From the NCBI GenBank assembly GCA_003167255.1, contig PMTR01000056.1:1-55836 (forward strand): DNA of 55,836 bases, in the 5' to 3' direction. The notes under the pieces are model-generated. The model saw only the letters and a list, made by a program, of their open reading frames with translations, searched no databases and was not told where the DNA came from. How positions within the stretch are numbered: the stretch's first letter is position 1; every line of letters begins with the position of its first letter. Shown here piece by piece: positions 2,505 through 40,942 of this stretch. A program made the translations under genes and the position numbers. The stretch comes from Bryobacterales bacterium (GTDB taxonomy: Bacteria > Acidobacteriota > Terriglobia > Bryobacterales > Bryobacteraceae).

Positions 2505-2560
2505 ACTACTTCGATTCTAGTTCCTATGCCCGGCGGTTGCTCAGGCCGGAATGCGAATTC

Positions 2561-3118: not shown

Positions 3119-3202
3119 GGCAGATCCATTTTCCTCGCGGGACAGGTCCGTGTCAACCGTCGGCGGCGGGGCAAGATACCGGGATCGGCGGGCACGGAGG
3201 GG

Positions 3203-23113: not shown

Positions 23114-26056
23114 GTGTTCAGCCGCCTCAACACCCACTGCCGCGTTAGCGCCTGCCTGGCGGCCGCGCTGTTTCTTCCGGCCGCTCTTGCGCTCGACCCC
23201 CACAAGAGCCTCACCCAGTACTCCCGCCAGTCGTGGGGCCAAGTGGACGGACTCCCCCAGGACACCATACGCGCCATCGCCCAAACCGCCGATGGCTACC
23301 TCTGGCTCGGAACCGACGAAGGCCTGGCCCGTTTCGACGGCTACGAGTTTACCGTGTTCAATAAGTCCGACGGCAGCCTCCCCGCCAATTCCATCACCGC
23401 CCTGGCCGCCGATCCGGATGGATCTCTGTGGATCGGCACCGGCCGCGGGCTTACGCGGTTTCACGCCAAGAGCTTTCACACTTTCACCACGAAGGATGGC
23501 CTCCCCGATGACGCGGTGACCGGCATCTTCTCAGACCACGCGGGCACCCTGTGGATCGTGGCCGGGGTCTCTTTGAGCCGCTTCCACGATGGCCGATTCA
23601 CCAACTATTCCCCCGGCCCCAACCTCCTGTCGGTGCGGGCAATCCGCGAGGACCCGCATCATGATCTGGTGGTGGCCGGTTTCGGAGGCGTGGTCCGCAT
23701 CTCCGGGGACAAATACACCACTTTGATCGACAATGCGACGGTCGGTGGCAATGTGGTCTCCTCCCTACTGGTCGATCGCCACGACAACCTCTGGGTGGCT
23801 GGGAGCCTTGGCCTGATGCTCCGCACGCCGGACGGCCACATTCGCAAATTCGGCACTCACGACGGGTTGCCCGACGTCTACGTTCGCGTCGTCCTGGAAG
23901 ACCGCGACGGCAACATCTGGATCGGCACCAACGGCGGCCTCGCCCGTTTTGAGGGCGACCGTTTTGTGGCTTCCGCCGAAGGCGGCCGTGACAGCGACCT
24001 GGTCCGCTGCCTTCTGGAAGATCGCGAGGGCGATCTCTGGATGGGCGCCAACAACGGCCTCACGCGGCTTCGCGACGACGCGTTCACGGTCTACGGCAAG
24101 ACCGAGGGCCTGCCTTCCGACGAACCCAACACGGTCTTTCAGGATCACGCCGGCCGTATCTGGGTGGGGTTTCACGAAGGCGGGCTGATGCTCTTCTCCG
24201 GCGACCGGCGCCGCTTTACGCCGAGTGACGGCATGCCTGAGACCGAAGTTTTTTCCATCCGTGAAAGCGCCAATCACGATCTTCTACTGTCCACCCGAGT
24301 CGGCCTAGTTCGCATGCACGACTCTGGTTTCACCACCCTGATCCCGCCCGATCCGCTTTCGCGCCGCATCGTTTTCGACGCCCTCGAAGATTCCGCCGGC
24401 CGGCTTTGGCTGGCGAGTCCCGCCGGTCTCTTCGAAGTCCAGGGCCGGCAGATCCGCACGGTTCTCGCCGCTGGCGCGGCCGCTGCCAATTCGGTCGTCA
24501 CGCTTTGCGAAACCCGCGATGGCGCCCTATGGGCCGGCACCTTCGGCAAAGGCCTGTGGCGCATCCAGGACAAGGATGTGCGCTCCTACTCATTGGCCAC
24601 CGGACTCTCCAGCGATAACATCCGCGAACTCTATCAGGACTCGGACGGAACATTGTGGGTCGGCACTTTTGGCGGTGGTCTGGGCGCGTTTCGCGAAGGC
24701 CGCTTTCAATGGTTTACCCAGCACGATGGCCTGCTCAGCGACAACGTCGCCAATATCGCCGACGATGGCGAATCCCTTTGGCTCAGCACTACCCGCGGCA
24801 TCTGCCGCATCGCGAAACGCCAACTGACGGATTTCGCCGCCGGCAAACGAAAATCCCTCGATCCCATCAACTATGGCGCCGGCGACGGCTTGCGCAGCGC
24901 GCAATGTTCCCCCGGCTATCCCACCGGCGGTGGCGGCGACCGCACCGCGGATGGCCGCCTGTGGTTCACCACCAGCCGCGGGCTGGCCGTCTTCAATCCT
25001 CGTGCGACGCCGCCCACCTCAGTGCCGCCCGCCGTTCAACTGCTCGACATCGCCGCCGATGCCAACTTGATCGATCTCTCCAAGCCCGCGCGCCTCGCCC
25101 CGGACATCCAACGCTTTCGCATCCGCTATGCCGCAATCCACTTGAGCGCTCCCGAGCGCGTGCGGTATTCCTACAAGCTCACTGGCCTGGAGCCCGACTG
25201 GGTGAGCGCCGGCGCCCGCCGCGAGATCAACTACAACAGCCTCAAACACGGCCACTACCTCTTCTCGGTCAAGGCCGAGATCCCGGGGGGCTCGTCCACG
25301 GAACAGTCCTTTGCTTTCGACGTTCTGCCGCATTATTACGAGACCGTATGGTTCCGGCTGTTCTGCGGTGGGTTGCTGGCTGCCTGCGGCTGGGCCGTCT
25401 ATCAAGTGCGTCTGCGCCGCATCCGCTACCGCTTTGCGCTGATCCTGGGTGAGCGCGCCCGTCTGGCCCGCGAGATTCACGATACGCTGGCCCAGGGCTT
25501 CGTCGGTATCGCTTCCCAACTTGACGCCGTCTCCATGCTCGTCCCCGACGAACCGTCGCCGGTCCGCAAGTATCTCGACATGGCCCGCCGCATGGCCCGC
25601 CACAGCCTCACCGAAGCCCGGCGTTCGGTGATGGATTTGCGCGCCTCCGCGCTGGAAGGCCACGACCTGGCCGGAGCCATTCAGAGCAGCACGCGCACGT
25701 GGACGGCGGGCTCCCCCGTGGATGTGGCCGTGGATGTCTCGGGTCCCGCCACGGTCCTCCCCGAGGAGATGGAGCAGCACCTCCTGCGCATCACCCAGGA
25801 GGCCGTCACTAACGTTTTGAAACATGCCGCCGCCAGCCGCGTCGTGATTCAGCTCCACACCGAAGCGCGCCGCATCTCGCTTCGCATTCGAGACAACGGC
25901 CGCGGATTCGAGCAGCAGGGCGTCTTTACCTCCAGCGGCGGCCACTTTGGGTTGCTCGGCATGCGCGAGCGCGCGGAGCGGCTGGGCGGAGAGCTGCGCC
26001 TGGCCAGCCAGCCCGGCGGAGGGACAGAAGTTGAAGTTACGGTGCCATTACCATGA
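23114..26056 (+). CDS. Two-component-propeller sensor histidine kinase
   Basis: 980 residues starting with GTG. After a signal peptide (about 1-27) come some 12-14 two-component-propeller (Reg_prop) blades, seen as repeats of the type GYLWLGTDEGLARFDGYEF, NIWIGTNGGLARFEGD and LWVGTFGGGLGAFREGRF. Then a Y_Y_Y domain (about 660-735), one membrane helix (about 750-770) and a NarL-type HisKA_3 with His789 in ARLAREIHDTLAQGF. The ATPase domain (NVLKHAA, DNGRGFE, GLLGMRERAERLGG) closes it. The periplasmic propellers bind an extracellular ligand, often a glycan in Bacteroidetes relatives. The stop overlaps the response regulator start (ATGA). A TATACT at 23099-23104 suggests a leader of only a few bases. 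Confidence 0.94.
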   Translation: MFSRLNTHCRVSACLAAALFLPAALALDPHKSLTQYSRQSWGQVDGLPQDTIRAIAQTADGYLWLGTDEGLARFDGYEFTVFNKSDGSLPANSITALAADPDGSLWIGTGRGLTRFHAKSFHTFTTKDGLPDDAVTGIFSDHAGTLWIVAGVSLSRFHDGRFTNYSPGPNLLSVRAIREDPHHDLVVAGFGGVVRISGDKYTTLIDNATVGGNVVSSLLVDRHDNLWVAGSLGLMLRTPDGHIRKFGTHDGLPDVYVRVVLEDRDGNIWIGTNGGLARFEGDRFVASAEGGRDSDLVRCLLEDREGDLWMGANNGLTRLRDDAFTVYGKTEGLPSDEPNTVFQDHAGRIWVGFHEGGLMLFSGDRRRFTPSDGMPETEVFSIRESANHDLLLSTRVGLVRMHDSGFTTLIPPDPLSRRIVFDALEDSAGRLWLASPAGLFEVQGRQIRTVLAAGAAAANSVVTLCETRDGALWAGTFGKGLWRIQDKDVRSYSLATGLSSDNIRELYQDSDGTLWVGTFGGGLGAFREGRFQWFTQHDGLLSDNVANIADDGESLWLSTTRGICRIAKRQLTDFAAGKRKSLDPINYGAGDGLRSAQCSPGYPTGGGGDRTADGRLWFTTSRGLAVFNPRATPPTSVPPAVQLLDIAADANLIDLSKPARLAPDIQRFRIRYAAIHLSAPERVRYSYKLTGLEPDWVSAGARREINYNSLKHGHYLFSVKAEIPGGSSTEQSFAFDVLPHYYETVWFRLFCGGLLAACGWAVYQVRLRRIRYRFALILGERARLAREIHDTLAQGFVGIASQLDAVSMLVPDEPSPVRKYLDMARRMARHSLTEARRSVMDLRASALEGHDLAGAIQSSTRTWTAGSPVDVAVDVSGPATVLPEEMEQHLLRITQEAVTNVLKHAAASRVVIQLHTEARRISLRIRDNGRGFEQQGVFTSSGGHFGLLGMRERAERLGGELRLASQPGGGTEVEVTVPLP

Positions 26057-26676
26057 ACGCAAAAATTCGAATACTGGTCGCTGAAGATCACCTGGTGGCG
26101 CGCGTGGGCGTGAGCGCCATCGTCAACATGCAACCCGACATGGCCGTGGTTGCCGAAGCCGCCAACGGGCAGCAGGCCGTGGAACTCTACCGGCAGCACC
26201 GGCCCGACGTGGCCCTGCTGGATCTCCGGATGCCCGGCATGGGTGGGGTGGAAGCCGCGGCCGCTATACGCGCCGAGTTTCCCCAGGCCCACATGATCGC
26301 TCTGACCACCTATGGCGGTGACGAAGACATTCGCCGCGCTCTCTCGGCCGGGGTGCAGGCCTATCTCACCAAGGACGTGTTGCACGACGAATTGCTCAAC
26401 GCCATCCGCGCCGTGCATGCGGGCCAGACTTATTTGCCGGCCGCCGTGGCCGCCGCGCTGGCGGCGCAGATGCCGCGGCCGGACCTCAGCGCCCGCGAGG
26501 TGGAGGTCCTCGAACTGATCGTCCGCGGTCTGGCCAACAAGCAGATTGCGTACGCCCTGAGCATCGCCGAGCACACGGTCAAGAACCACGTGAAGAGTAT
26601 TTTGAGCAAGCTCGGCGTGCAGGACCGGACGCAGGCGGCCACGGCGGCGATACAGCGGGGGATTATCCATTTGTAG
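26053..26676 (+). CDS. NarL/LuxR-type response regulator
   Basis: 207 residues. The receiver domain (1-120) has the acidic pair Glu11-Asp12, the phospho-acceptor Asp57 in VALLDLRMPG, and the conserved Lys in AYLTKDV. The C-terminal LuxR helix-turn-helix (about 145-205) reads LSAREVEVLELIVRGLANKQ and AYALSIAEHTVKNHVKSIL. It is translated in a 4-nt overlap with the kinase gene and is certainly its partner. The last 229 bp of this gene are present a second time at 27271-27499 beyond the BrnT/BrnA genes. Confidence 0.95.
   Translation: MNAKIRILVAEDHLVARVGVSAIVNMQPDMAVVAEAANGQQAVELYRQHRPDVALLDLRMPGMGGVEAAAAIRAEFPQAHMIALTTYGGDEDIRRALSAGVQAYLTKDVLHDELLNAIRAVHAGQTYLPAAVAAALAAQMPRPDLSAREVEVLELIVRGLANKQIAYALSIAEHTVKNHVKSILSKLGVQDRTQAATAAIQRGIIHL
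26448..26676 (+). repeat. 229-bp direct repeat, left copy (3' end of regulator gene)
   Basis: Nearly identical to 27271-27499 at an offset of 823 nt, ending at the same stop codon. The differences cluster in the first about 35 bp, plus one change at about 26632 (G versus A). The two copies enclose the brnT/brnA pair. Confidence 0.92.
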
Positions 26677-26740
26677 GGCGGACGTGTCGGCTGCGTTTGT
26701 GCGCTCAGCGTTGGAGCTTGATCAGCGTCAAGGCTCTCGA

Positions 26741-26980
26741 TCACGCACGTTTGCGAGTCTCGGCCCGCGCCGCAATCGCGACAAGCGCTCGAAGCGCATC
26801 GTTAACGGATTTCGAATCTGGAAAAGCCTCCGCCAATTCCGGGTCGAGGAGCACCACATTGGTTCCCTGGCGGTATCGGTCCACGTACTTGCCCCGAACG
26901 CCACCGGAAAAGTCGTACTCCGCCCTCATCTCACGGGTACGGGGCTTAGAGGGAGTTTTCTTCATAGTTGCGTCTCTCAT
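26741..26980 (-). CDS. brnA: BrnA-like antitoxin
   Basis: 79 residues (or 74 if translation starts at the second Met, 26965). The first part, MKKTPSKPRTREMRAEYDFS, and the segment KYVDRYRQGTNVVLLDPELA match the layout of antitoxins paired with BrnT. It opens with a basic tail, then a short EYDFSGGVRGKY motif and a ribbon-helix-helix-like C-terminus (SVNDALRALVAIAARAE). It overlaps the toxin gene by 35 nt, with the toxin first as usual for brnTA. As a DNA-binding dimer it should neutralise BrnT and repress the pair. Confidence 0.78.
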   Translation of the reverse strand: MRDATMKKTPSKPRTREMRAEYDFSGGVRGKYVDRYRQGTNVVLLDPELAEAFPDSKSVNDALRALVAIAARAETRKRA

Positions 26981-27233
26981 ACTTCGTCGCCGGGCGAGCG
27001 CTGATCAGACGGATCCGCTCTCCCCTAATAGTATGAACCACAATCAGCGGACTTCGCTTGCTGGACATTCCGATGATTACGAAGCGCTCTTCGTCGATGG
27101 CGTGATCCGGGTCGGGGACCGTGATCGAAAGAGCGTCATCGAAGACGGTGCTCGCCTCGGCAAATCCGACGCCGTGCTTCCGCCGATTCGCCGAATCCTT
27201 GCTCCGATCCCACTCAAAAGCGATTCCATACAT
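26946..27233 (-). CDS. brnT: BrnT family ribonuclease toxin
   Basis: 95 residues, normal for BrnT. Family signatures are FEWDRSKDSANRRKHGVGF near the start, FVIIGMSSKRSPLIVVHT, and the C-terminal ISARPATKYERRNYEE, with the basic and acidic residues of the RelE-like RNase fold. BrnT cleaves RNA and arrests growth until neutralised by BrnA, which is encoded directly after it with overlap. The pair lies between duplicated 3' ends of a response-regulator gene and points opposite to it, so it is a mobile or recently captured addiction module. Confidence 0.85.
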   Translation of the reverse strand: MYGIAFEWDRSKDSANRRKHGVGFAEASTVFDDALSITVPDPDHAIDEERFVIIGMSSKRSPLIVVHTIRGERIRLISARPATKYERRNYEENSL

Positions 27234-27270
27234 CTCCCGTCGATTTTAGCGAATCGGGAAGTGCAACGGA

Positions 27271-27499
27271 GGCCGCCGCGCTGGTCGCCCAGATGCCGCG
27301 CACGGACCTCAGCGCCCGCGAGGTGGAGGTCCTCGAACTGATCGTCCGCGGTCTGGCCAACAAGCAGATTGCGTACGCCCTGAGCATCGCCGAGCACACG
27401 GTCAAGAACCACGTGAAGAGTATTTTGAGCAAGCTCGGCGTGCAGGACCGGACACAGGCGGCCACGGCGGCGATACAGCGGGGGATTATCCATTTGTAG
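27271..27499 (+). pseudogene. Duplicated 3' end of response regulator (orphan LuxR HTH)
   Basis: This is the right copy of the 229-bp repeat. It encodes the LuxR-type DNA-binding domain with no receiver: the frame from ATG 27293 gives 68 residues starting MPRTDLSAREVEVLEL and ending at the same terminal residues and stop as the full gene. No ribosome site is apparent before 27293, so it is probably a non-expressed fragment. If translated, the free DNA-binding domain could compete with the full regulator. It differs from the full gene mainly in its first 35 bp. Confidence 0.8.
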
Positions 27500-27639
27500 C
27501 CCAGGGCTGGAGGCAATGCTGTTCCCTTAACTAGTTGGGAATTTCGTTGCCTGACAACGAATTGGACCCGTGCGTCGAATCCCTTCCGATTGGGAATTCC
27601 GCGCGAAGGACCCGGGTACCGCAGTTTCGGGGAAGACCC

Positions 27640-27645
27640 TATAAT
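27640..27645 (+). promoter_or_regulatory. -10 element of the second propeller kinase
   Basis: TATAAT perfect match. Transcription would begin near 27652, only about five bases before the ATG at 27657, so the mRNA is probably leaderless or nearly so. No clear -35 is found at 16-18 nt. Confidence 0.5.
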
Positions 27646-27656
27646 AGGTTCCTGAC

Positions 27657-30600
27657 ATGCGCGTCTCCGCACGTTGCCGGGTTCTTGAGCTGGGAGTACT
27701 CGCCACCTGCTGGTCCCTGCACAGCGCACAACTTCCGCTCCGGCGTTACACTACGGCCGACGGCCTGGCGAGCAACGCCGTTTACAGTATTGCGTCGGAT
27801 TCGCGCGGTTTTCTATGGTTCGGCACCGCCGAAGGGCTCTCGCGTTTTGACGGCTTCGGATTTGCGAATCAGAACGAGAGCACGGGCTTGCCGCATGGCA
27901 CCGTCACACAAGTGCTGATCGGCCGCCACGGCAATTACTGGCTCGCCACGCCGGCAGGCCTCGTGCGGTTCCGGCCGGATCTTCCGGAATCGAGCGCGGA
28001 TCGGATGGTCGTCATCCGGCCGAACGGCAAGCCGGAGGCCGCCCACATCTCGGCGCTTCTGGAGGACCGGGCCGGCACGCTCTGGTGCGGGACGGCAGCC
28101 GGCCTGTACGCAATCGACGACACTGCCAGTCCTGCACCACGGCTCGCCGAAGTACGGATTGGGCTGCCGGGCGTGTCCTGGGGCGATTCGGAAGTGAGCG
28201 CACTGGCGGAAGATGCGGAGGGCGGTGTGTGGATCGGAGCGAGGGATGGAGCCTTATACCGCCGCCTGCCGGACCGGCGCATCGAGCGCTACCCGTCAAC
28301 CGAAAGGCCGCTCCAGGCCCAGATCACGCGTCTTCTCGCGGACCGGGAGGGCCGCATATGGGTGGGAAGAGTAACCAGCCTCTACCGGTCCAATCCCGCT
28401 GCCCACCCGGGCGCGAATGGATTCGAACGTCTCTCCGGACAAAACGGCGGGCTGCCGCCAACTCGCGTCTTCGACATATTCGAATCGCGGGAAGGCGACG
28501 TCTGGGTGGGAATGTATCGATGTCTGGCCCAGTTTCCCGCGGACGGAGCGCCGGTCCGCGTGTGGACCAAGGACAACGGATTGCCCAGCCGGGGAGTTGG
28601 GGGGCTGGCGCAGGATCGGGACGGAAACCTGTGGATGGGAACCGGCGACCTTGGCGCGTTCAAACTAGCGGCGGGCGGCATCCTGACTTATTCGATCGCG
28701 GACGGAATCGGGATGGACGCGGTGATCTCGGTTGCCGAGACCCGCCGCGGCGAGTTGTACATCGCAGGCCGTCAAGAGTCGGAGGGCTTTCGCATCGGCT
28801 TTCGCTCGGGTGATGGTTTTCATGCCATCGCGCCCAGCGTTCCCCAAAAGATCCACTATTTTGGCTGGCGGCCGGCACGAGTGATCCTGCAGGATCACGC
28901 CGGCGAATGGTGGCTGGCGACCAGTCAAGGGCTATGCCGTTATCCCCGTTTGGAGAGCCCGTCGCAGCTCGCCCAAACCGCGCCCAAGGCGGTTTACACC
29001 AGGCGCGATGGCTTGCCGGCGGATGTAGTGGTCCGGCTTTATGAGGACCGCGGCGGGAATATCTGGGTAGGCACCGAATCGAAGAAACTCGTCTACTGGG
29101 GCAGGAGCGAGGAGAAGTTCATCGGGATTGGCGCCGATGGGATTCCCAGCGTCGCCTCCGCGTTCTGCGAAGACAACGCCGGGCACGTGTGGATCGGCGA
29201 CGAGTCGGGCCAGTTGTGGAGAGTGCGGGACGGACGCGCTTCGCTGGTGGCCGGCCAGGCCAGGAAAGCCGAGATTCACGATCTTTTGCTGGACCACGCC
29301 GGACGTCTCTGGGTGGCGACAGACGGCCAGGGCCTCCTGCGCTTCGACCAACCGGCGGCGCCCAAGCCCCAATTCCGGCAATACGGTTATTCCGACGGGC
29401 TTTCCAGCCTCGACCTGCACAGCCTGGCCGAGGACCGGAACGGCTCCATCTACGTCGGAACCGGAGGCGGAGTCGACCGTCTGGATCCGGATCTGGTGCA
29501 TATCCGGCACTACACTTCCGCCGATGGCATCGCTCCGGGACAGGTGATTGCGGCATATCGCGACCGCACCGGCGCCATCTGGTTCGGAACCAATCACGGG
29601 CTCACGCGCCTGGCGCCGCAGAACGGTCCGGCCAGCGATCCGCCACCAGTGTGGATCACCGGCCTCTCCATTGCCGGACGCCGCGCGCCAGTTTCGGAGG
29701 CGGGCGAATCGAGCATCCGCGCCGTCGAGGTACAGCCGGGGCAGGAACACATTCAGTTTGATTTCGTGGGATTGAGCTACGCTCCGGGCAACGTTCTGCG
29801 ATATCAGTATCGCCTGGGGGACGGCGCATGGAGCGCGCCCATCGAGTCGCGCTCGGTTCACTATGGTGCGCTCGCGCCCGGACAGTACCGGTTCGCGGTG
29901 CGCGCCCTCAACTCGGATGGCGAGGCCAGCCCGGCGCCGGCGACCGTGGAATTCCGCGTGGCGCCGCCGCTCTGGAGGCGCGCGTGGTTTCAGGCTATTC
30001 TCATCGCCGCGGCGCTCGCCGGCGCCGTCTCGGTGCATCGCGCGCGAGCGTCCCGGCTGCTCGAAATCGAGCGCGTCCGCTCCAACATCGCTCTCGATCT
30101 GCACGACGATATTGCCTCGAACCTATCGCAGATCACCATCTTCAGCGAAATCGCCATGCGCGAGGCGGGAGTCGATTCCCGCGCCGGGGAACCCCTGGCT
30201 CGCATTGCCGAAACCGCCCGGGACACGGTGGAGTGCATCAGCGACATTGTGTGGAGCATCCGGCCGCAGATGGAAGGCGACCTCTTGCAGCGCATCCGCC
30301 GGGTCGGGAGCGATGCGCTCACCTCGCGGCAGATCGAGGTATCCTTCCACTTCCCGGAAGAGGTGCGGCATCTCGGACTGGACCCGAACACGCGACGCCA
30401 GGTGTACTTGATCTACAAGGAAGCCGTCCATAACATTGTCCGGCACGCCCAGGCAACGGCCGTCGAGATCTCCATGAGCGTGGATGGCGGCAAGCTGCTG
30501 CTGAAGGTTGGGGACAACGGCAAAGGAATGGAGGCGCCGGAGGAAGGCAACGGTCTGCCAGGCATGCGCGCGCGCGCCGCGTCTTTGGGGGGGGCGCTGG

Positions 30601-30689
30601 AGATTCACTCCGCCGCGGGTGAGGGCACAGAGGTCGAACTGCGCGCGCCGTTGAAGCGCCCGTGGCGCCGCCATATCCTACCTGAATAA
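27657..30689 (+). CDS. Two-component-propeller sensor histidine kinase
   Basis: 1,010 residues with the same plan as the 980-residue kinase. A signal peptide is followed by about 13 propeller blades (for example GFLWFGTAEGLSRFDGFGF, NLWMGTGDLGAFKL and AIWFGTNHGLTRLAPQNG), then a Y_Y_Y domain (about 680-760, with VLRYQYRLGDGAW). A membrane helix (about 775-795) and HisKA_3 with His816 in IALDLHDDIASNLSQI come next. The ATPase domain reads NIVRHAQATAVE and DNGKGMEAPEEGNGLPGMRA. The dimerisation helix has the HDD form, unlike HDT of the first kinase, so the two pairs are not recent duplicates. Its regulator follows 58 nt downstream. The ligand is unknown. Confidence 0.94.
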   Translation: MRVSARCRVLELGVLATCWSLHSAQLPLRRYTTADGLASNAVYSIASDSRGFLWFGTAEGLSRFDGFGFANQNESTGLPHGTVTQVLIGRHGNYWLATPAGLVRFRPDLPESSADRMVVIRPNGKPEAAHISALLEDRAGTLWCGTAAGLYAIDDTASPAPRLAEVRIGLPGVSWGDSEVSALAEDAEGGVWIGARDGALYRRLPDRRIERYPSTERPLQAQITRLLADREGRIWVGRVTSLYRSNPAAHPGANGFERLSGQNGGLPPTRVFDIFESREGDVWVGMYRCLAQFPADGAPVRVWTKDNGLPSRGVGGLAQDRDGNLWMGTGDLGAFKLAAGGILTYSIADGIGMDAVISVAETRRGELYIAGRQESEGFRIGFRSGDGFHAIAPSVPQKIHYFGWRPARVILQDHAGEWWLATSQGLCRYPRLESPSQLAQTAPKAVYTRRDGLPADVVVRLYEDRGGNIWVGTESKKLVYWGRSEEKFIGIGADGIPSVASAFCEDNAGHVWIGDESGQLWRVRDGRASLVAGQARKAEIHDLLLDHAGRLWVATDGQGLLRFDQPAAPKPQFRQYGYSDGLSSLDLHSLAEDRNGSIYVGTGGGVDRLDPDLVHIRHYTSADGIAPGQVIAAYRDRTGAIWFGTNHGLTRLAPQNGPASDPPPVWITGLSIAGRRAPVSEAGESSIRAVEVQPGQEHIQFDFVGLSYAPGNVLRYQYRLGDGAWSAPIESRSVHYGALAPGQYRFAVRALNSDGEASPAPATVEFRVAPPLWRRAWFQAILIAAALAGAVSVHRARASRLLEIERVRSNIALDLHDDIASNLSQITIFSEIAMREAGVDSRAGEPLARIAETARDTVECISDIVWSIRPQMEGDLLQRIRRVGSDALTSRQIEVSFHFPEEVRHLGLDPNTRRQVYLIYKEAVHNIVRHAQATAVEISMSVDGGKLLLKVGDNGKGMEAPEEGNGLPGMRARAASLGGALEIHSAAGEGTEVELRAPLKRPWRRHILPE

Positions 30690-30747
30690 GCAGGGTCCGC
30701 GCGCGGGTGAAACTGGTACGGTTGAGGTCGGGCCCAGGTAACAATAG

Positions 30748-31395
30748 ATGCCGGAACCCACCATTCGCATCGTCATCATTGAGGACCGGCGCGAAATTCG
30801 CGAGGGGCTGAGAACGCTGATTGCGTATACCGAGGGCTACGAGTGCGTGGCGGCGTACCGGTCGATGGAGGAGGCGCTGCCGGAAATCGAGCGAGCGCGG
30901 GCGGACGTGGCACTGGTCGACATCGGGCTTCCCGGCATGAGCGGGATTGAGGGCATCCAACGCTTGCGCGTGGTGGTTCCGAAGATGCAGTCGCTGGTCC
31001 TGTCGGTGTACGACGACGACGAGCGGGTTTTCCAGGCCATCTGCGCCGGGGCCTGCGGCTACCTGCTCAAGAACACTCCGCCGGCGGATTTGCTGGCGGC
31101 GATCCGCGAAGCGGCATCGGGAGGCGCGCCGATTTCGCCCAAGATCGCCAGCAAGGTGCTGGCACTATTCCGGCAGATTCATCCTCAGGAAACATCGGCC
31201 GCGGCGCTGACGCCGCACGAACTGCGCCTGTTGCTTCTGCTGGTGGACGGCCATAACTTCAAGACGGCCGCGGCGGAGATGGGTGTATCGGTACATGGTA
31301 TCTCTTTCCACACGCGGAACATTTACGAGAAGCTGCAAGTGCACTCCAAATCCGAAGCCGTGGCCAAGGCTTTGCGGCTCGGATTAGTGCGCTGA
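30748..31395 (+). CDS. NarL/LuxR-type response regulator
   Basis: 215 residues. The receiver has Glu12-Asp13, phospho-acceptor Asp58 in VALVDIGLPGMSG and Lys in GYLLKNTPP. A C-terminal LuxR-type helix-turn-helix (about 150-212) is more diverged than usual, with LTPHELRLLLLLVDGHNFKT and MGVSVHGISFHTRNIYEKL, but the spacing is right. It lies directly behind the second propeller kinase and is its likely partner. Targets are unknown; the PEP-CTERM pair that follows on the same strand 56 nt later is one candidate. Confidence 0.93.
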   Translation: MPEPTIRIVIIEDRREIREGLRTLIAYTEGYECVAAYRSMEEALPEIERARADVALVDIGLPGMSGIEGIQRLRVVVPKMQSLVLSVYDDDERVFQAICAGACGYLLKNTPPADLLAAIREAASGGAPISPKIASKVLALFRQIHPQETSAAALTPHELRLLLLLVDGHNFKTAAAEMGVSVHGISFHTRNIYEKLQVHSKSEAVAKALRLGLVR

Positions 31396-31451
31396 TTCCT
31401 ACGCCAACAGGCAGGATGACTTAACCACTTCTGCTGGTATCGTTGCCTTCA

Positions 31452-32150
31452 ATGAATGTCAGTTTGCACTTACTGGGTCTGTCGGCAAGAATTGTAGGGC
31501 TCGCGGCCGTATCGTTTCTTACGGTTGGTGCAAAAGCGGACACTATAATCTCGTTCACCGGGGACCTCCGCAGCGATGCGAATGTAATCGACTGCGGCTC
31601 CGGCTGCACGCTCGGGGCGGGAAACTCCGACGGCGACTACGCGCAGTGGGCCGCCCTCGTCGTGGCGTTCAATGTCCCGGTAAATGAGACGGTCCAAATC
31701 GTCACGTTCAGTTACGGCGGCGGCACCAATGGCAACGGTGCTGTGATCCCGCAGGGTGGACTAGAGCCTTACCTGAGCCTGTTCGACGCCACGGGGAATT
31801 TTCTGGCTTCCACCTACTTCGGCATCACCTGTCCGCCCGGGGCGAACACCAATTCCAGCAGCGGGTTTTGCTACGACGTTCTGCTGGATGCCGGGACGTT
31901 GTTGGCGGGTAACTATCAGGTGGCGATATCGGCCTACTTGAACATGTCACTGGCCGAGAACTTAGGCATCGGGACTCTTACCGACGGGTTCACCGGCTTC
32001 GGCAACCTGTACGCGGGCGAGGATCTGCACTATGCATTCGATATCGATCTGGGGGCTCCTTCCGCGGCAACGCCGGAGCCGGGGACCTTCGGACTACTGG
32101 CGCTCGGGGCCATAGCGCTCTTTAGAGTCAAGAAAGGAAAACAATCGTGA
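31452..32150 (+). CDS. PEP-CTERM sorted exported protein
   Basis: 232 residues from ATG 31452 (an in-frame TTG lies nine bases upstream). Signal peptide (about 1-29, ending GAKA), then a beta-rich domain with Cys pairs (DCGSGC, and Cys residues in ITCPPG and GFCYDVLL). The layout resembles DVUA0089-type exported proteins: LFDATGNFLAS, LAGNYQVAISAYLNMSL and EDLHYAFDIDLG. The C-terminus is a PEP-CTERM signal, TPEPGTFGLLALGAIALF followed by RVKKGK, which targets proteins to exosortase for transfer to the surface or matrix. The stop overlaps the start of the next gene (GTGA), so the two are co-translated. Part of the gene is duplicated at 32829. Confidence 0.85.
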   Translation: MNVSLHLLGLSARIVGLAAVSFLTVGAKADTIISFTGDLRSDANVIDCGSGCTLGAGNSDGDYAQWAALVVAFNVPVNETVQIVTFSYGGGTNGNGAVIPQGGLEPYLSLFDATGNFLASTYFGITCPPGANTNSSSGFCYDVLLDAGTLLAGNYQVAISAYLNMSLAENLGIGTLTDGFTGFGNLYAGEDLHYAFDIDLGAPSAATPEPGTFGLLALGAIALFRVKKGKQS

Positions 32151-32644
32151 AACACAGACTACTAACGTTCGCCGGAGCGCTTGCGCTGCTGGCTGTCCTC
32201 GGAAAATTCTACGCCGTGCCCGCCATCGCGCAAGCTGTCCGCGCCGCCGTGGTGAAGAACATTGACGAGCGCGGACGAACTCCGTATCAGACGATCCTTT
32301 TGTGTAATGGCCTTAATAGCTGCGTCTCTGCTGCGGGGATCGCCGTCCCTGCTCACTCTCGCCTCGTCATAGAACACGTCAGCGGCTTCGCACAGTTTCC
32401 GGAAAGCCAGCAAATCAACGGGATATTGCTTACTTCCAGTGCTTCACGGTCGTACATCGTGGCCACCTTTCTAGAGGACTATGGAGGATTATACAATTAT
32501 GGTTTCGATCAACCCCATTTGTTTTATGTCGAAGCCGGCGACGCGCCCGTCCTGCAACTATTCGTAAGTGGCGCCCCCGTAAATGGTCATTATGCGGAGG
32601 CTCAATGTCAGATTTCCGGGTACATAGTGGACCTCAGCCAGTAG
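32147..32644 (+). CDS. Small secreted protein coupled to the PEP-CTERM gene (copy A)
   Basis: 165 residues starting with GTG in a 4-nt overlap with the PEP-CTERM gene. A signal peptide or N-terminal anchor (LLTFAGALALLAVLGKFYAV) is followed by AIAQAVRAAVVKNIDERGR, a pair of Cys in LLCNGLNSCVS, the conserved HSRLVIEH and a C-terminal QISGYIVDLSQ. A close paralogue lies at 33125 with the same start, Cys pair, HSRLVxEH and last ten residues. It is not recognised as a known family; the Cys pair and beta pattern suggest an extracellular sandwich fold. It may bind or chaperone the sorted protein. Confidence 0.72.
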   Translation: MKHRLLTFAGALALLAVLGKFYAVPAIAQAVRAAVVKNIDERGRTPYQTILLCNGLNSCVSAAGIAVPAHSRLVIEHVSGFAQFPESQQINGILLTSSASRSYIVATFLEDYGGLYNYGFDQPHLFYVEAGDAPVLQLFVSGAPVNGHYAEAQCQISGYIVDLSQ

Positions 32645-32745
32645 AGTCCGCCAGGCTGCCGCCGGATAGCGATCTCAGCCTGCGCGTACATGTCACTGTT
32701 CGAGAGCGCCGGCAGCGGGCCGCGCGCCGTCCGCAGGATTTTCCC

Positions 32746-32801
32746 GGGGATCTCGGGGACAGTCTACGAAACTCCCAAACGCCAGTGGCTGAGCGATTGG
32801 G
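32746..32801 (+). repeat. 56-bp dispersed repeat, copy 1
   Basis: Matches 33919-33974 with about two mismatches (offset 1,173). It contains ggggacagtctacgaaactc, and its inverted arm gtagcctgtccctgaaa follows at about 32809, so the whole 32746-32828 block is a palindrome-ended unit resembling a REP/BIME or small MITE. It sits exactly before the truncated PEP-CTERM copy. Confidence 0.75.
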
Positions 32802-32828
32802 GGTTGCGTAGCCTGTCCCTGAAACCCG

Positions 32829-33128
32829 AATTCCAGCAGCGGGTTTTGCTACGACGTTCTGCTGGATGCCGGGGCCTTGGCGGCGGGCAACTATCAGGTG
32901 GCGATATCGGCCTACTTGAACATGTCCTTGGCCGAGAACTTAGGTATCGGGACTCTTGCCGACGGGTTCACCGGCTTCGGCAACCTGTACGCGGGGGAAG
33001 ATCTGCACTACGCATTCGATATCGATCTGGGGGCTCCTTCCGTGGCGACGCCCGAGGCTGGGACGTTCGGACTGCTGGCGCTCGCGGCCATAGGGTTATT
33101 GGGAATCAGGAGAGGAAAACAATCATGA
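32829..33128 (+). pseudogene. 5'-truncated duplicate of the PEP-CTERM gene
   Basis: Bases 32829-33125 are homologous to 31851-32147 (the last 40% of the PEP-CTERM gene). The reading frame has no start, and a TGA stop (32820-32822) lies just upstream. The break coincides with the dispersed repeat. The sorting motif has decayed from TPEPGTFG to TPEAGTFG, losing the second Pro of PEP. It probably survives only as the 5' context for the following coupled gene. Confidence 0.82.
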
Positions 33129-33628
33129 AACACAAACTGTTGACTTTCGCCGGGGCGCTCGCGCTGCTGGCTGTCCTGGGGAAGTTTTACGCCGTTCCAG
33201 CCATCGCGCAGGCGGTTCGCGCCGCCGTGGTGAAGAACATCGACGAGAAGGGACGAATACCGTATCAGGCGCAGATTAACTGTACCGGTTACAGCGTCTG
33301 CAACGTTGGCTTGAGCCCAGTACCGGCTCACTCGCGCCTAGTGGTCGAGCACATCGGCCTTCAGGCCGTAGTAGACACGGGCTCCCAGGTTATGTTCACG
33401 GCCCTAGGGGCCGAGTCGGGCGTCTTTAATCAACTCTCGTCGTATGATATGCTTCTCGCCACCTTTCAGGGCGAGGCTTTTGGTTATGACACGTATATCG
33501 TAAGTGGTCCTGCATTGACGTATTTTGAGGCTGGCCAGACGCCGGGCGTCATTTTTGAACTTAGCCTAGGCATAACCACTAGGATCACTGGTCAGATTTC
33601 CGGTTATCTGGTCGATCTCAGCCAGTAG
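33125..33628 (+). CDS. Small secreted protein, paralogue of 32147 (copy B)
   Basis: 167 residues from an ATG that overlaps the stop of the truncated PEP-CTERM copy (ATGA). The first about 45 residues are nearly identical to copy A (FAGALALLAVLGKFYAVPA and VVKNIDEKGR). The middle has diverged strongly but keeps the Cys pair (INCTGYSVCN), HSRLVVEH and the end QISGYLVDLSQ. A longer frame of 312 residues upstream is only read-through of the duplicated DNA. Whether it is still expressed, now that its upstream partner is truncated, is uncertain. Confidence 0.7.
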   Translation: MKHKLLTFAGALALLAVLGKFYAVPAIAQAVRAAVVKNIDEKGRIPYQAQINCTGYSVCNVGLSPVPAHSRLVVEHIGLQAVVDTGSQVMFTALGAESGVFNQLSSYDMLLATFQGEAFGYDTYIVSGPALTYFEAGQTPGVIFELSLGITTRITGQISGYLVDLSQ

Positions 33629-33654
33629 AGCCGCCAGGCTGCCGCGGTGATCGC

Positions 33655-33921
33655 TCACCCCGCCACCTGCTCGAAAAACTCCAGATAGCGCGGGGCCAGC
33701 GTTTCGCGATGATAAATGCGTCCGGCTTCTAACGCCCGGCGCGACGCCTCCTGGTAGAAGGCCTCGTCGTCGGTCAACTTTAGGATCAGGTCCACCCACG
33801 GCTCCACGGTTTCCGCATCCACTGGAGCCGGGGTCTCGGGTGTCACTTCCGGCGGGATCGGCACCACGAAACCGCCGCCATTCGCGATCTCCGCCAATCC
33901 GCCGCGATCGCTGACAAGGGG
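33655..33921 (-). pseudogene. C-terminal remnant of a group 1 glycosyltransferase
   Basis: The frame reads PLVSDRGGLAEIANGGGFVV and continues PIPPEVTPETPAPVDAETVE, the end of a GT4-type glycosyltransferase (the donor-site segment before the last helices), and finishes with a normal C-terminal helix PRYLEFFEQVAG. The upstream part is missing: coding similarity stops where the 56-bp repeat begins (33919), and an in-frame stop follows at 33937. The annotated-looking start at 33897 is a TTG inside the conserved segment and is not a real start. The intact gene was lost by deletion or insertion at the repeat. Confidence 0.78.
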
Positions 33922-33974
33922 GATTTCGGGGACAGGCTACGAAACTCCCAAACGCCAGTGGCTGAGCGATTGGG
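33919..33974 (+). repeat. 56-bp dispersed repeat, copy 2
   Basis: Second copy of the repeat at 32746-32801. Further degenerate pieces (cattttcccgggg at about 33990, matching gattttcccgggg at 32737) extend the similarity. It marks the breakpoint of the glycosyltransferase remnant. The 33975-34129 gap after it holds no gene that I can recognise. Confidence 0.75.
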
Positions 33975-34129
33975 CGAAAGGGGACGGACGCATTTTCCCG
34001 GGGCAATTCGGTGACGGTAATTCGGGGCTACGCAATCTCGAAACCACTCTGTGCGCATCCTTTCGTGAGTCCCGTCCAGGTGGGATTGGGAACGACGAAC
34101 GCGCTTCCGCCCTTCATCCATCCCACTCG

Positions 34130-34558
34130 TTACTTCGCCCGCAAGGGATTGACGATCTTCAGGCCTGCAAAGTCTCTTTCGTTTTCGGTGACAACTACGC
34201 AATCATTCGCTTCGGCGACTGCGGCCATGATCATGTCGAGTGGGCTCCGTGGCCGGCCTTTTGCCGTCTCGCCGGCCATCAGCCGCGCCCACACGAGGCC
34301 GGCCTTTTCGTCGAACGGGAGCACCCGGCCGGCGAACAGCGCAGGCGGGCCCTCGGGGCCGGAAAACCAACGCTCCAATTCCCTGCGCTTCTTTCCGGCG
34401 GGCTTCTCCAGTATTCCGCGCCGGATCTCAGCGACGGTCAGGGATGAGATAAACAGATCCTGGTCGGCTTGTTCAGCCATCCACGCGACGAGTTCTTCCG
34501 ACGGCATGGGCTTGGTGACATTGCTGATGATGTTGGTGTCGAGGAGGCTCCGGCTCAC
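34130..34558 (-). CDS. vapC: VapC-type PIN-domain ribonuclease toxin
   Basis: 142 residues. The PIN acidic residues are in place: Asp7 in LLDTNIIS, Glu44 in LTVAEIRRG, the Asp of SPLDMIMAAVA and the Asp in VVTENERDF. The subtype resembles FitB/VapC toxins, with IRRGILEKPAGKKRREL. It cuts RNA and is neutralised by the antitoxin encoded upstream with a 4-nt overlap. The toxin looks intact. Confidence 0.9.
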   Translation of the reverse strand: MSRSLLDTNIISNVTKPMPSEELVAWMAEQADQDLFISSLTVAEIRRGILEKPAGKKRRELERWFSGPEGPPALFAGRVLPFDEKAGLVWARLMAGETAKGRPRSPLDMIMAAVAEANDCVVVTENERDFAGLKIVNPLRAK

Positions 34559-34857
34559 AGGTCAACCCTGCGGCCCCTCGTCACCGGGCGGTTGAGATCC
34601 AGATCGGCGCCGACCAGAGGCGACCGGCGTAATGCATTGAGGATACCGCCCTTTTTCGACTGATCCCCCGAAATGGTAAGGCGGACAGTGGCGCGAATCC
34701 GCGCCGGATCTGGGCCGTTGCCGGCGAGCCGCCTTGCGAGCGACCGGACCAACTCGCGATCGGTGTCGAGCCCAAGAACCTCGAACCGGGCCATCCCTCG
34801 CTGGTTGAGGCGCTTCCGGTAGTTGTGCAGCGCTCGTTTTTGCGGCGTGGTGCTCAT
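34555..34857 (-). CDS. vapB: VapB-like antitoxin
   Basis: 100 residues from the ATG at 34857, chosen because GGAGG lies 7-8 bases upstream (an in-frame alternative 45 nt upstream has no ribosome site). The N-terminus TPQKRALHNYRKRLNQRGM and then ARFEVLGLDTDRELVRSLAR are typical of antitoxins paired with FitB/VapC toxins in acidobacteria and proteobacteria. It is expected to bind the operator upstream and to block VapC. Its ribosome site and start are duplicated at 40908-40937. Confidence 0.8.
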   Translation of the reverse strand: MSTTPQKRALHNYRKRLNQRGMARFEVLGLDTDRELVRSLARRLAGNGPDPARIRATVRLTISGDQSKKGGILNALRRSPLVGADLDLNRPVTRGRRVDL

Positions 34858-34880
34858 GGCGGATTCCTCCGTATATCCAG
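34851..34880. repeat. 30-bp repeat covering the vapB start and ribosome site
   Basis: Identical to 40908-40937 next to dnaJ. On the minus strand it contains GGAGGAATCCGCCATG, the Shine-Dalgarno and start codon of the antitoxin. Confidence 0.85.
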
Positions 34881-35011
34881 TAATATAACCAGATTGTAGC
34901 ATTGGAGCGCGGTAACCTGCGCCCAGGATCCCGGCACCAGCCCTCCGGCAACATACGTCGCGCCATTACTGGCGCGCGCCCGGTGGCGGCTGCGGTACTA
35001 TTTATGGACTC

Positions 35012-38000
35012 TTACTGTATGGCGACAGTGGCATCAGTCCGGGAAGACGCCCCGCCAATCGTAACAACCAGCGGGACGGCACTGCCGGTTGGAACATTGG
35101 CCGGGATGAGCACGTTGATCTGAACTTCCCCGGAATACACCAGGCCGACAAAAACCACGTTGGCGGCAGGTAACGGAACGCCTCCGAGACTAACACTCAC
35201 CGGCAGCACCGGACTTGGAAACGGTGGGCCCTTGGGTTGGATGCCGTCCGGCGGCGGGGCATTGACATAACCTTGCCCGGTCAGCCAGAACGCAACGTAG
35301 GTGCCCCGGGCCGCAGGGTTCGAACTGGAATTGAACGTTCCGTCCTGGTTGACCATCCACGCCTGACCCGGCCCGTAAGCCTGGGTAAAGATTCCAGGCG
35401 AGGCGTTCACTATAGGGACGGTTACGCTGCTGCTCATCACGCCGTTGACCTCGACCTGAATAGTGGTTTGCGTACCCCCTGCGCCGAAAGGCACCAATGC
35501 GTTGATCTGCCCGTCCTGGGCATAGGTCAGATAAGCGGCCGTTCCCCCGATTGAGACGCTGGCTCCCCCCAGTTGCGTGGTCATATTGGAAACGGCCCCG
35601 GTTGCCGGGCCGAGGCCGGCGCCTTTTATGGAAATGAACTCGTTGGGGGCAATCCCGCCCGTCTGAAGCGTAGCGGCATTGAACACGCTGGCGGCCGTGA
35701 ATGCCGGGCCGCCGGGTGTGATCTTAGCGACAAAGCCGTGGTAGCAGCAGGGGTTGTTGCCGACGGTCGTCTGGAATGCGCCGGGAGTGGTGATCAGATG
35801 CGGGCCGGCGTCATTGCCGGCCAGATAGATGTCGCCGGCCGCGTCGACTGCCAGCCCGGCTGGATTCGCGGTGTCGAGCCCGCCGGAACCGATGTACGTG
35901 GAGAATAGCAGGTTCGCGCCCGTGGGGTCGATCTTGGCGACGAGCACCTGCATGTCTCCGCCGTTTCCGGCCAACTGAACGGGATTGACCAATGGGAAAC
36001 CCGGGTTCGGTTGCCCGATGATATAGACGTTCCCGTTCCCATCCAACTGGATGGGGCCGGTAAAGAATAACGCGTCGCTTGCATCGCCCTTGCTGTCTCC
36101 GACAAAGGTGGACCACAGGATGGCGGTGCCGGTAGGATTCAGCTTGGTCACGTGGGCCGCCGCGCAGTTCTGCCCATTCGGACCGCAGACTGTCGAATAA
36201 GCGCCGGCCGTCACGGGAAAATCGTGAGAATTGGTATACCCGACGATATAGGCATTGCCGGCGCTATCGATGGTGATGCCGCTGATGTAGTCGCCTAAAT
36301 TCCCAGTTTTGCCGCCAAGGTAGGTGGCGTAGGTCAGCGATGCCCCACCGGCGGAAGTGACCGGATAGAACTTCGCAACGAAGCCGCGCCAGGCTTGCAG
36401 AGAGGTTGCCGGGTTGCCCAAAGGAGCACCGGTAGGCTGAACCACGCCGGCGGTCGTGGGCAGGGTGCTAGCCTGGGTCTCGCCGACTAGATAGAAATAG
36501 CCGTTGGCATCCACCGCGATCCCGGTGCCATACGTACCGCCGCCGCAGCCGATGACGCACTGGAAATTCGTATCGCCGAAGATAGTGGAATAGAGCAGTT
36601 GGGAGCCGGTGGGGTCGAACGCCGAGACGAAGGCGTATTGCGGCGACCCTCCGACAGTTCTGTTTCCTCCGATTACCGCGCCATTGGTGGTGGGAAAGCA
36701 GCCTTGGAACGTAGTGTATGGGTAGCAAGACTCCTGCTCGTTGCCGGCAATGTAGGCGCGGCCGGCGCTATCCACGGCAATGGCAGTGGCGTACGCGTAA
36801 GCGTAGCCGCCCAGAAATGTCGAGTAGACAAGGCTCGTCCCGGTGGCATTCAGCTTGGTCACAAATGCCGAAACGTTGGAGGAATTGCAGCCTGATGTGG
36901 GCTGCTGTCCGGTATTGTACGGGACCGTGTCGCAGATGGTCTGGTACGCCCCGGGGGTTATCGGGAAATTGGGCGAGTTTGTCTGACCGGTTACGTAAGC
37001 GTTGCCATTGGAGTCCACCGCGATGGCGTAGATGTAGTCATAACCGTTGCCGCCCAAGTAAGTGGAATAAACCAGCGAACTGCCATCGGGGCTGAATTTG
37101 GTTACAAACGCCGAAGGCCATTGCCCAGGGGGGACGGGGCTGCCTGCCGGCCCCTTTGCCGGAGAAGCGCTTTGATAAGGGCTCTTCATCGGGAAGTCGA
37201 TCGAGTATGTGTCGCCCGCCACATACACGCTTCCCGCGCTGTCCACCGCGAGGCCCTGCGACGTACCCACCGCACTTATACCGGGTCCGAGCGTCCAGCC
37301 GATGTGATCGGTGCTGCTTCCGGCAAGATAACTGGCATAGCGCAGCACCGGATCGATGATCAGCGCCCTGGAATGGTCGTAGCTGCCAAGCCGGAAGCGT
37401 ACCTGATTCCCGGCCACGGAGAACCACCCTTCGACGCTCGTCTTCCTGTCTCCATCCAGTTGGTACAGCACCGGTTTCTTGAAGCTGGCCGGACCGTTGG
37501 GCGCGCTCAGAGCTAAATTGCCCTCAGCGTCGACGCGGGCGCGAGCGCCGTCGATCCGCCAGGCGATGCGGCTGGGGTCGGCGCCGGGGGCGACGACAAA
37601 GTCGTACTCCAACTGGCGCTGATTCCCGTAGAAGACCAGATCCACGCCGGGGTAGATCTGGGGATACTCGACCTTGCCATAGGTCGGGATGCCGGAGCGC
37701 CAGTTCTTCGGGTCGTTGCCGATGAAGTAGCTCACCACGCCGGGCTGTTGGGCCAGTCCTACTGCGTTGGCCTTGGGATTTGCCCCGATCAGGCTCATGC
37801 GCAGGGTGTCGGCGGAGGCTTGGGGTGTTTGCCCCGTCGCCGCGGCCGATGCCTTCTGTTGCCGCTCCAGGTTCAGGACCACCTTGCCCGGAGTCAGGAA
37901 GAGCGCGTAGCCGGAACCGCGCGTGAGAAACTGAACCGTGGAGGCCACCTGCCCCTGGTTCGGCTCGAAACTCAATGGCACGCTCATGAGCTTCGCTTCG

Positions 38001-38221
38001 GGGCGGTTCGTGGACAGTGGGAGAGAGCGCGGGTTTTCCGCCGGAAAGACGGGCGCTCCGGGACTGGCCTGCCGGGAAGCCGCCGGCGCCGCCCGCGGCT
38101 TGTCATCTGGCCAGGAGGTGCGCGGCCAGCCAAGATTAAAGGAAATCGAAATTATCGCGAGCGCCGTTACAGCCCGAAGCGCACGCGCCCACAATGCAAC
38201 CGAAGACCGTTCGCTTGTCAT
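35012..38221 (-). CDS. SBBP-repeat exported protein with Solibacter-type C-terminal domain
   Basis: 1,069 residues. The signal sequence (about 1-35) precedes an N-terminal domain seen in SBBP proteins (SLSFEPNQGQVASTVQFLTR, about 80-285). Then about ten beta-propeller (SBBP) repeats of about 50-70 residues run to about 830, each like SLVYSTYLGGNGYDYIYAIA followed by VDSNGNAYVTGQTNS. The last about 220 residues (FTAASVFNAATLQTGGIAPN, FISIKGAGLGP and VPFGAGGTQTTIQVEV) match the TIGR03437-type domain first described from Solibacter usitatus. It is surface-exposed or secreted, probably adhesive or glycan-binding; that function is inferred. It is monocistronic. The C-terminal domain is the strongest taxonomic clue in the window. 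Confidence 0.9.
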   Translation of the reverse strand: MTSERSSVALWARALRAVTALAIISISFNLGWPRTSWPDDKPRAAPAASRQASPGAPVFPAENPRSLPLSTNRPEAKLMSVPLSFEPNQGQVASTVQFLTRGSGYALFLTPGKVVLNLERQQKASAAATGQTPQASADTLRMSLIGANPKANAVGLAQQPGVVSYFIGNDPKNWRSGIPTYGKVEYPQIYPGVDLVFYGNQRQLEYDFVVAPGADPSRIAWRIDGARARVDAEGNLALSAPNGPASFKKPVLYQLDGDRKTSVEGWFSVAGNQVRFRLGSYDHSRALIIDPVLRYASYLAGSSTDHIGWTLGPGISAVGTSQGLAVDSAGSVYVAGDTYSIDFPMKSPYQSASPAKGPAGSPVPPGQWPSAFVTKFSPDGSSLVYSTYLGGNGYDYIYAIAVDSNGNAYVTGQTNSPNFPITPGAYQTICDTVPYNTGQQPTSGCNSSNVSAFVTKLNATGTSLVYSTFLGGYAYAYATAIAVDSAGRAYIAGNEQESCYPYTTFQGCFPTTNGAVIGGNRTVGGSPQYAFVSAFDPTGSQLLYSTIFGDTNFQCVIGCGGGTYGTGIAVDANGYFYLVGETQASTLPTTAGVVQPTGAPLGNPATSLQAWRGFVAKFYPVTSAGGASLTYATYLGGKTGNLGDYISGITIDSAGNAYIVGYTNSHDFPVTAGAYSTVCGPNGQNCAAAHVTKLNPTGTAILWSTFVGDSKGDASDALFFTGPIQLDGNGNVYIIGQPNPGFPLVNPVQLAGNGGDMQVLVAKIDPTGANLLFSTYIGSGGLDTANPAGLAVDAAGDIYLAGNDAGPHLITTPGAFQTTVGNNPCCYHGFVAKITPGGPAFTAASVFNAATLQTGGIAPNEFISIKGAGLGPATGAVSNMTTQLGGASVSIGGTAAYLTYAQDGQINALVPFGAGGTQTTIQVEVNGVMSSSVTVPIVNASPGIFTQAYGPGQAWMVNQDGTFNSSSNPAARGTYVAFWLTGQGYVNAPPPDGIQPKGPPFPSPVLPVSVSLGGVPLPAANVVFVGLVYSGEVQINVLIPANVPTGSAVPLVVTIGGASSRTDATVAIQ

Positions 38222-38651
38222 ACTCGTTGTCCCTCTCTGTCCTTCCGGACTTCATTAGCCAGGATTACCGTCTTGGCTTCCCGGCCACCTTCAAGCATAA
38301 CTCCAACCGGCTAATCGGGACTGTTTCTCTTATTTCTTTCCATCGCGAGCGGCTCCAGTGGCCCACGAAACGGGCGGGCTCCGGCTCCTCTGGGAGCGCA
38401 AGAACTTGGAAGTACCTGGTTTTATTGGATTTGTCAGACGCCTCTCCTCCTTCGCCCAATTTGCTTCCCTGCGCCGCACACCATCCGGCTGACGCCGGCA
38501 GGGCCTCCTTCCGCCGCAACGATGCTCCCAAACAACCGCCGCGTCAAATGACTCTCGGCCAGCATCAGCCAATAGTACCGGCTGGTCCGCGACCAGTTGT
38601 CGATTTTCTTCGGCAAGGGTTACCGGTAGCTGTCCTTGCGGCTCATTGGGT
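38222..38651. other. 430-bp intergenic region, no clear gene
   Basis: It separates the SBBP gene (promoter expected in 38222-38300) from the hybrid kinase. A minus-strand frame at 38434-38616 encodes about 60 residues (SRTSRYYWLMLAESHLTRRL in its middle) from a TTG with no ribosome site. It could be a decayed gene fragment but matches no family I know. No terminator with a T-run was found. Confidence 0.5.
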
Positions 38652-40859: not shown

Positions 40860-40907
40860 TATCTTAGGATATCTTAGTCCAAAACAACCTGGTACCAAAC
40901 AAGGGGC

Positions 40908-40937
40908 TGCTCATGGCGGATTCCTCCGTATATCCAG
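40908..40937. repeat. 30-bp relic of a vapB start region
   Basis: Exact copy of 34851-34880, which holds the Shine-Dalgarno and start codon of vapB. Here it precedes no antitoxin frame: the DNA runs at once into the 3' end of dnaJ (stop at 40943). It looks like a scar of a deleted toxin-antitoxin module or a short conversion tract. Confidence 0.8.
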
Positions 40938-40942
40938 CCACC

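Follow-up and report, generated by a model that had tools for sequence, protein, structure and literature searches.

Restriction-modification systems are reportedly able to enter genomes by insertion with long target duplication, a form attributed to Nobusato (2000) and Furuta (2010). Integrase elements, such as e14 at icd, restore the 3′ end of a gene or tRNA; the element brings a gene end of its own and an orphan end remains. The portions of PMC3031569 and PMC3874152 devoted to restriction-modification systems describe insertion with long, variable target duplications, in the latter review for some of these systems. In the passage of that review that treats small chromosomal toxin–antitoxin (TA) modules, their movement is often put down to carrier elements. 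A laboratory precedent is found in the sections of PMC3240628 dealing with lacZ-end fragment DNA in Escherichia coli, where a duplicated lacZ-end PCR product was obtained from 56 of 60 analysed recombinants; the duplications measured 109-950 bp in the 14 that were sequenced, and the authors read them as recA-dependent single crossovers. Finally, the account of Vibrio T6SS orphan immunity-gene arrays in PMC5361080, in its pertinent passages, proposes a process resembling homology-facilitated illegitimate recombination.

Here, we describe a BrnT cassette from a Bryobacterales bacterium, located in a window that comprises the whole analysed stretch of 55,836 nucleotides (contig PMTR01000056.1, assembly GCA_003167255.1). 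The locus displays a feature of insertion with long target duplication, namely a flanking direct repeat of the 100-bp order (229 bp, 97% identity). As far as the relevant passages on restriction-modification insertion go, the likeness extends to a recombinase-free, addiction-type module, a variable target duplication of about 100 bp and recognition by genome comparison, while the differences are that the modules here are type II TA cassettes, that gene ends make up several of the targets and that, in a few pairs, the copies differ as two alleles would. The lacZ recombinants, ascribed to homology-facilitated illegitimate recombination or single-crossover entry, share a gene-end duplication of 109-950 bp beside foreign DNA; as those sections present it, that system is an E. 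coli laboratory construct, whereas ours is natural and its mechanism is a proposed one. The Vibrio arrays likewise stack toxin/immunity modules behind a gene whose old 3′ end is pushed back, but in the passages concerned the effector gene itself is displaced, whereas the host gene here is unrelated and survives intact. Unlike integrase elements, the present insert is a two-gene cassette, with no integrase among the ORFs scanned. The known form is thus insertion with long target duplication; its use by type II TA cassettes, the frequent choice of gene ends and a hot spot with differing modules look new, and among the matches listed in the open-licence literature we recognised no description of the same pattern in TA systems.

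Results

The target gene is an intact response regulator of 207 aa (26053-26676, plus strand) with Response_reg and GerE domains. It overlaps its own sensor-kinase gene (23114-26056), and its orthologues adjoin the same kind of kinase. The last 229 bp of the gene (26448-26676, plus strand) recur at 27271-27499 in the same orientation, with a spacing of 823, an identity of 97% and six mismatches (26462, 26463, 26466, 26478, 26479 and 26631). The same TAG stop closes both copies, and the sequence outside either end of the repeat differs between them. Its length and identity exclude a chance origin. The own-genome search matched these two places only, without a third copy; the idea that some other regulator gene gave rise to the right copy, which the sequence-only reading had named as a refuting outcome, was rejected, as that search gave no better match. 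The predicted DNA fold of 26560-26700 (z −2.84) yielded nothing usable.

Between the copies lie 594 bp that encode, on the minus strand, BrnT (26946-27233) and an overlapping 79-aa ORF (26741-26980), and nothing else. The right copy is an orphan, and 27293-27499 (plus strand) within it is an open, putatively translated frame of 68 aa that has a GerE domain. In these respects our analyses bear out the sequence-only reading, which had proposed a duplicated regulator end with a shared stop at exactly these positions, only brnT and a reverse-strand partner between the copies, and a complete 3′ end on the left with a lone DNA-binding domain on the right. It had also seen no integrase, and in our scan neither integrase nor transposase families were found among the 17 window ORFs scanned (23.1-42.1 kb), and neither of the two ORFs between the repeats is an integrase. 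We agree, too, that 229 bp is too long for a transposase target duplication, an origin that we rejected on this length and the absence of a transposase from the ORFs scanned.

The longest block that is identical between the copies is 151 bp, near short read length, and the scaffold of the sister species is N-joined within the same gene end, as might be expected of an assembly artefact in a draft contig. Such an artefact is nevertheless extremely improbable: the copies carry six differences and have unique flanks, and a second locus of the same form in this genome (L075, below) has a longest identical block of only 49 bp.

The toxin assignment relies on a match to PF04365 of 93.3 bits (cut-off 34.5). 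Searches of Pfam, NCBIfam and PADLOC matched the 79-aa partner to no family, and the name brnA for this putative antitoxin is therefore a label given by position and co-conservation, as the ORF overlaps brnT and is kept together with it in related cassettes. The cassettes closest to that of the window, in G036 and G061, which belong to two other genera, have about 87% DNA identity with it and share only 26731-27259 (minus strand), the cassette core; the left spacer (26677-26730) is not common to them. Their flanks are unrelated and devoid of long repeats, so that cores of about 87% identity occupy three unrelated contexts and the common unit is the two genes plus a short leader.

The sequence-only reading had suggested that relatives lacking the module be compared in order to define the ancestral site. 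Orthologues of the regulator, the closest named of which are mostly drafts called Bryobacterales, Solibacter or Terriglobia, were found at 80 loci, and the 43 closest were compared. Seven of these extend less than 1 kb past the gene and are not informative; the gene end is single-copy in all 36 informative loci, which continue for 1 kb or more past it, four of them, the sister species included, carrying N inside the stretch checked. None of the 36 has two gene-end copies flanking a cassette. A BrnT-like match occurs 1.2-1.3 kb downstream of the regulator in L295 and L296, without a second gene end. The single gene end in 36/36 loci indicates that the cassette and the duplication were, on this comparison, derived together.

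This result bears on the possibility that duplication of the gene end preceded the arrival of the cassette between the copies, or that part of a duplicated kinase-regulator operon was replaced. A second kinase-regulator pair does lie nearby (27657-31395), as does another duplication (31.8-33.1 kb). However, the 229 bp have no match in the second pair, two copies without a cassette, which the earlier reading had considered fatal to its proposal, occur in 0/36 informative loci, and the association of cassette and repeat recurs at unrelated genes. We regard this order of events as very improbable.

The sister species (G001) aligns with the window on both sides of the locus at 84-95% identity over the main blocks. 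In its scaffold, 27.5-41.06 kb is missing and two-N joins fall within the gene end and close to dnaJ, so that just part of its single gene-end copy can be read and no exact empty site is readable; the DNA downstream of the window locus is not conserved. As the absence of 27.5-41.06 kb indicates, the place is a variable region rather than one clean insertion into otherwise conserved DNA.

To place the locus in a wider context, we scanned 128 BrnT loci from relatives for repeats spanning BrnT within 1.5 kb; the sample is not random and comprises the best-scoring matches of 121 genomes, the own genome and seven others. Under a strict filter (at least 45 bp and at least 80% identity), direct repeats spanned BrnT in 16/128 loci and inverted repeats in 0/128, with lengths of 46 to 229 bp. 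The controls without TA modules gave 3/290 in total: 3/231 tiles, drawn around the regulator orthologues and relatives and partly overlapping the regulator control, 0/30 cold-shock loci and 0/29 regulator loci, with match positions guessed in clipped control loci. The difference is significant (Fisher, p 1.2e-6). HicA (2/30) and PIN (2/30) loci together also exceed the controls (p 0.018), and between them and BrnT there is no significant difference (p 0.31), so that nothing here is special to BrnT. A looser filter gave 20/128 direct and 1/128 inverted repeats for BrnT, against 2/30 for HicA, 3/30 for PIN, 0/30 for cold-shock and 0/29 for regulator loci. Repeats below 80% identity place L055, L121 and L129 outside the strict 16, as does, in L135, a repeat that by eye starts directly behind the toxin match and holds the antitoxin gene. 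In the 60 BrnT loci that were retrieved as regions, the majority of them with longer flanks, eight direct repeats span BrnT and three lie entirely to one side of it. No spanning repeat was found in 112/128 loci, including the two closest cassettes.

A heuristic ORF scan assigned the targets of the strict 16. Gene 3′ ends are used in L071, L075, L102, L122 and L130, and also in L137 by reading frame; gene starts in L056 and L061; the inside of an ORF in L044 and L088; and a tRNA in L168. The loci L053, L078, L119, L131 and L147 received no assignment. Of 15 repeats searched against the collected loci, 12 match their own locus only, and those of L071, L075 and L130 match orthologues of the target gene, that of L075 also matching a 39-bp stretch of L266. 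The repeats are therefore target DNA and not shared cassette ends or element termini. The sequence-only reading had suggested asking whether other BrnT cassettes lie in duplicated ends of NarL-type regulators. Other BrnT cassettes do occupy duplicated gene ends, and the one in L075 uses the end of a response regulator of LytTR type and not of NarL type.

Two loci have readable empty sites. In L075, which belongs to the window's own genome, BrnT lies in a 1.96-kb insert between two LytTR response-regulator gene ends, and at positions 1077-3140 of that locus the same regulator gene end occurs three times, the third copy being partial, around two small inserts. The joined flanks match the sister species at 93.2% over 311 aligned columns, as one uninterrupted copy, and G002 shows the same contiguity. 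For L056, the empty site in G037 matches at 77.9% over 398 aligned columns, including 40 gap columns, with a poorly conserved non-coding part. Judged by these alignments, L075 and L056 show directly an insertion with long target duplication. The second insert of L075 contains an ORF of 83 aa whose RelB-like match is weak and falls below the cut-off.

A further group of loci centres on an AIRC-domain gene (PF00731), here called larB. Behind the gene end, G123 has a RelB-like/ParE-type pair and then a second gene end. In G122 and G100, a partial gene end comes after a BrnT/CopG pair and a HigB-like/HTH pair, respectively, and in G097 (L137), the gene runs off the contig ahead of a BrnT cassette and a second gene end. 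The BrnT proteins of G122 and G097 are 34% identical. Among 22 chosen loci of this gene, a second end is present in three, and the other 19 give a single match, one of the latter being the G097 contig edge and some having little downstream sequence. The AIRC-domain gene end is thus a hot spot (L376, L377, L380 and L137), with differing TA modules and gene-end copies.

The differences between copies are unevenly placed at the window locus: five of the six mismatches fall within the first 32 bases of the repeat, as seen in the right copy (27271-27499, plus strand), and the next 151 bases are identical (permutation p 0.010). One-sided clustering was also found in G097 (p 0.0014), L147 (p 0.021) and G123 (p 0.00025), and was absent in 7 of 11 pairs, for example L075 (0.23) and L056 (0.65); the values come from 11 tests and are uncorrected. 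Clustering in 4/11 pairs suggests a crossover point, or could instead reflect uneven constraint. In G097 and G123, the two AIRC-gene ends differ in their codons near the stop, yet specify similar peptides and keep the stop itself. These pairs resemble two functional alleles, which fits incoming DNA that carried its own version of the gene end. Third codon positions account for 4/6 differences in L071, 4/5 in L075, 2/3 in L122, 0/1 in L044, 4/11 in L130 and 0/9 in L102, the last in a doubtful frame; with L056, L088 and L137 left out, these counts are too few to separate donor alleles from decay.

A transposition or break-repair process of a new kind might duplicate long targets directly, without donor homology. 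This idea accommodates the unrelated and varied targets, gene starts and interiors included, and agrees with insertion with long target duplication as proposed in the literature. It predicts, however, copies that are identical at birth, whereas the AIRC ends of G097 and G123 differ one-sidedly with a similar peptide and the stop kept, and we consider it rather improbable.

Discussion

Our analyses revealed a cassette of about 0.6 kb that was probably, in our judgement, inserted immediately after the stop codon of the response regulator with a long target duplication, by host recombination with a homologous gene end. In the mechanism that we infer, the incoming DNA would consist of the cassette adjoining a homologous gene end. 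Host homologous recombination would pair this end with the resident one, and the other end would be joined without homology; alternatively, the fragment may first be circularised and then enter by a single crossover. By either route, the left-hand regulator would stay whole, and an orphan gene end would remain on the right. A dedicated recombinase would not be needed, the host gene would remain unbroken, and the repeats would represent a portable homology arm of the cassette. Among the points that count against this mechanism, a plain single crossover predicts differences across the whole repeat, so that a conversion tract or a one-sided event is needed, and not every repeat is a gene end, since gene starts, gene interiors and, in one case, a tRNA gene are used as well.

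The sequence-only reading had likened the locus to a circular element integrating by recombination with a gene end. The product indeed looks like gene-end recombination and was derived jointly with the cassette. An integrating circle is possible; a recombinase of its own would be a further assumption, and an integrase is unnecessary for it.

A tyrosine or serine integrase encoded elsewhere may instead have inserted a non-autonomous cassette, with the 229 bp as a long att region by which the gene end would be restored. The repeats of the window locus and of L130 stop exactly at the stop codon, as those of integrase elements do, a BrnT locus (L168) uses the 3′ part of tRNA-Phe as its repeat, and one AIRC-domain gene end is used repeatedly, in four genomes. 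On the other hand, the 17 ORFs scanned include no integrase, the targets differ and have no common core apparent by eye, and some repeats are gene starts or interiors. The variation in targets and in strict repeat lengths between loci argues against a single site-specific integrase, and we hold this explanation to be unlikely. In L168, the direct repeat (1470-1546 / 2960-3005) has its second copy at the contig edge; this locus looks like a classical integrative element and counts against the insertion by host recombination that we favour.

The same pattern at other genes in related soil bacteria suggests that TA cassettes can spread by borrowing host gene ends, without a recombinase of their own. 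More tentatively, and with greater doubt than we attach to the window locus, type II TA modules of several families may spread in this recombinase-free manner, with a host gene end as the portable homology arm by which host recombination would take them to the corresponding gene of other species. That gene would not be disrupted, and successive modules might build arrays of orphan ends, as at the AIRC-domain gene. The recurrent footprint and the empty sites make the question of how small recombinase-free chromosomal TA modules move a testable one.

The surroundings of the cassette display further features. The 13.5-kb segment that is absent from the sister species scaffold (27500-41057) contains the second kinase-regulator pair, of propeller type, a PEP-CTERM gene, a PIN toxin, an SBBP-repeat protein and a PAS kinase. 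A second, separate duplication, at 31845-32144 / 32823-33122 (300 nt, 90%) and 32746-32801 / 33919-33974 (56 nt, 96%), surrounds the PEP-CTERM protein gene and the small gene that follows it. About 7 kb from the BrnT cassette, at 34130-34902, a PIN/VapC-type toxin ORF overlaps a 115-aa partner without a family match.
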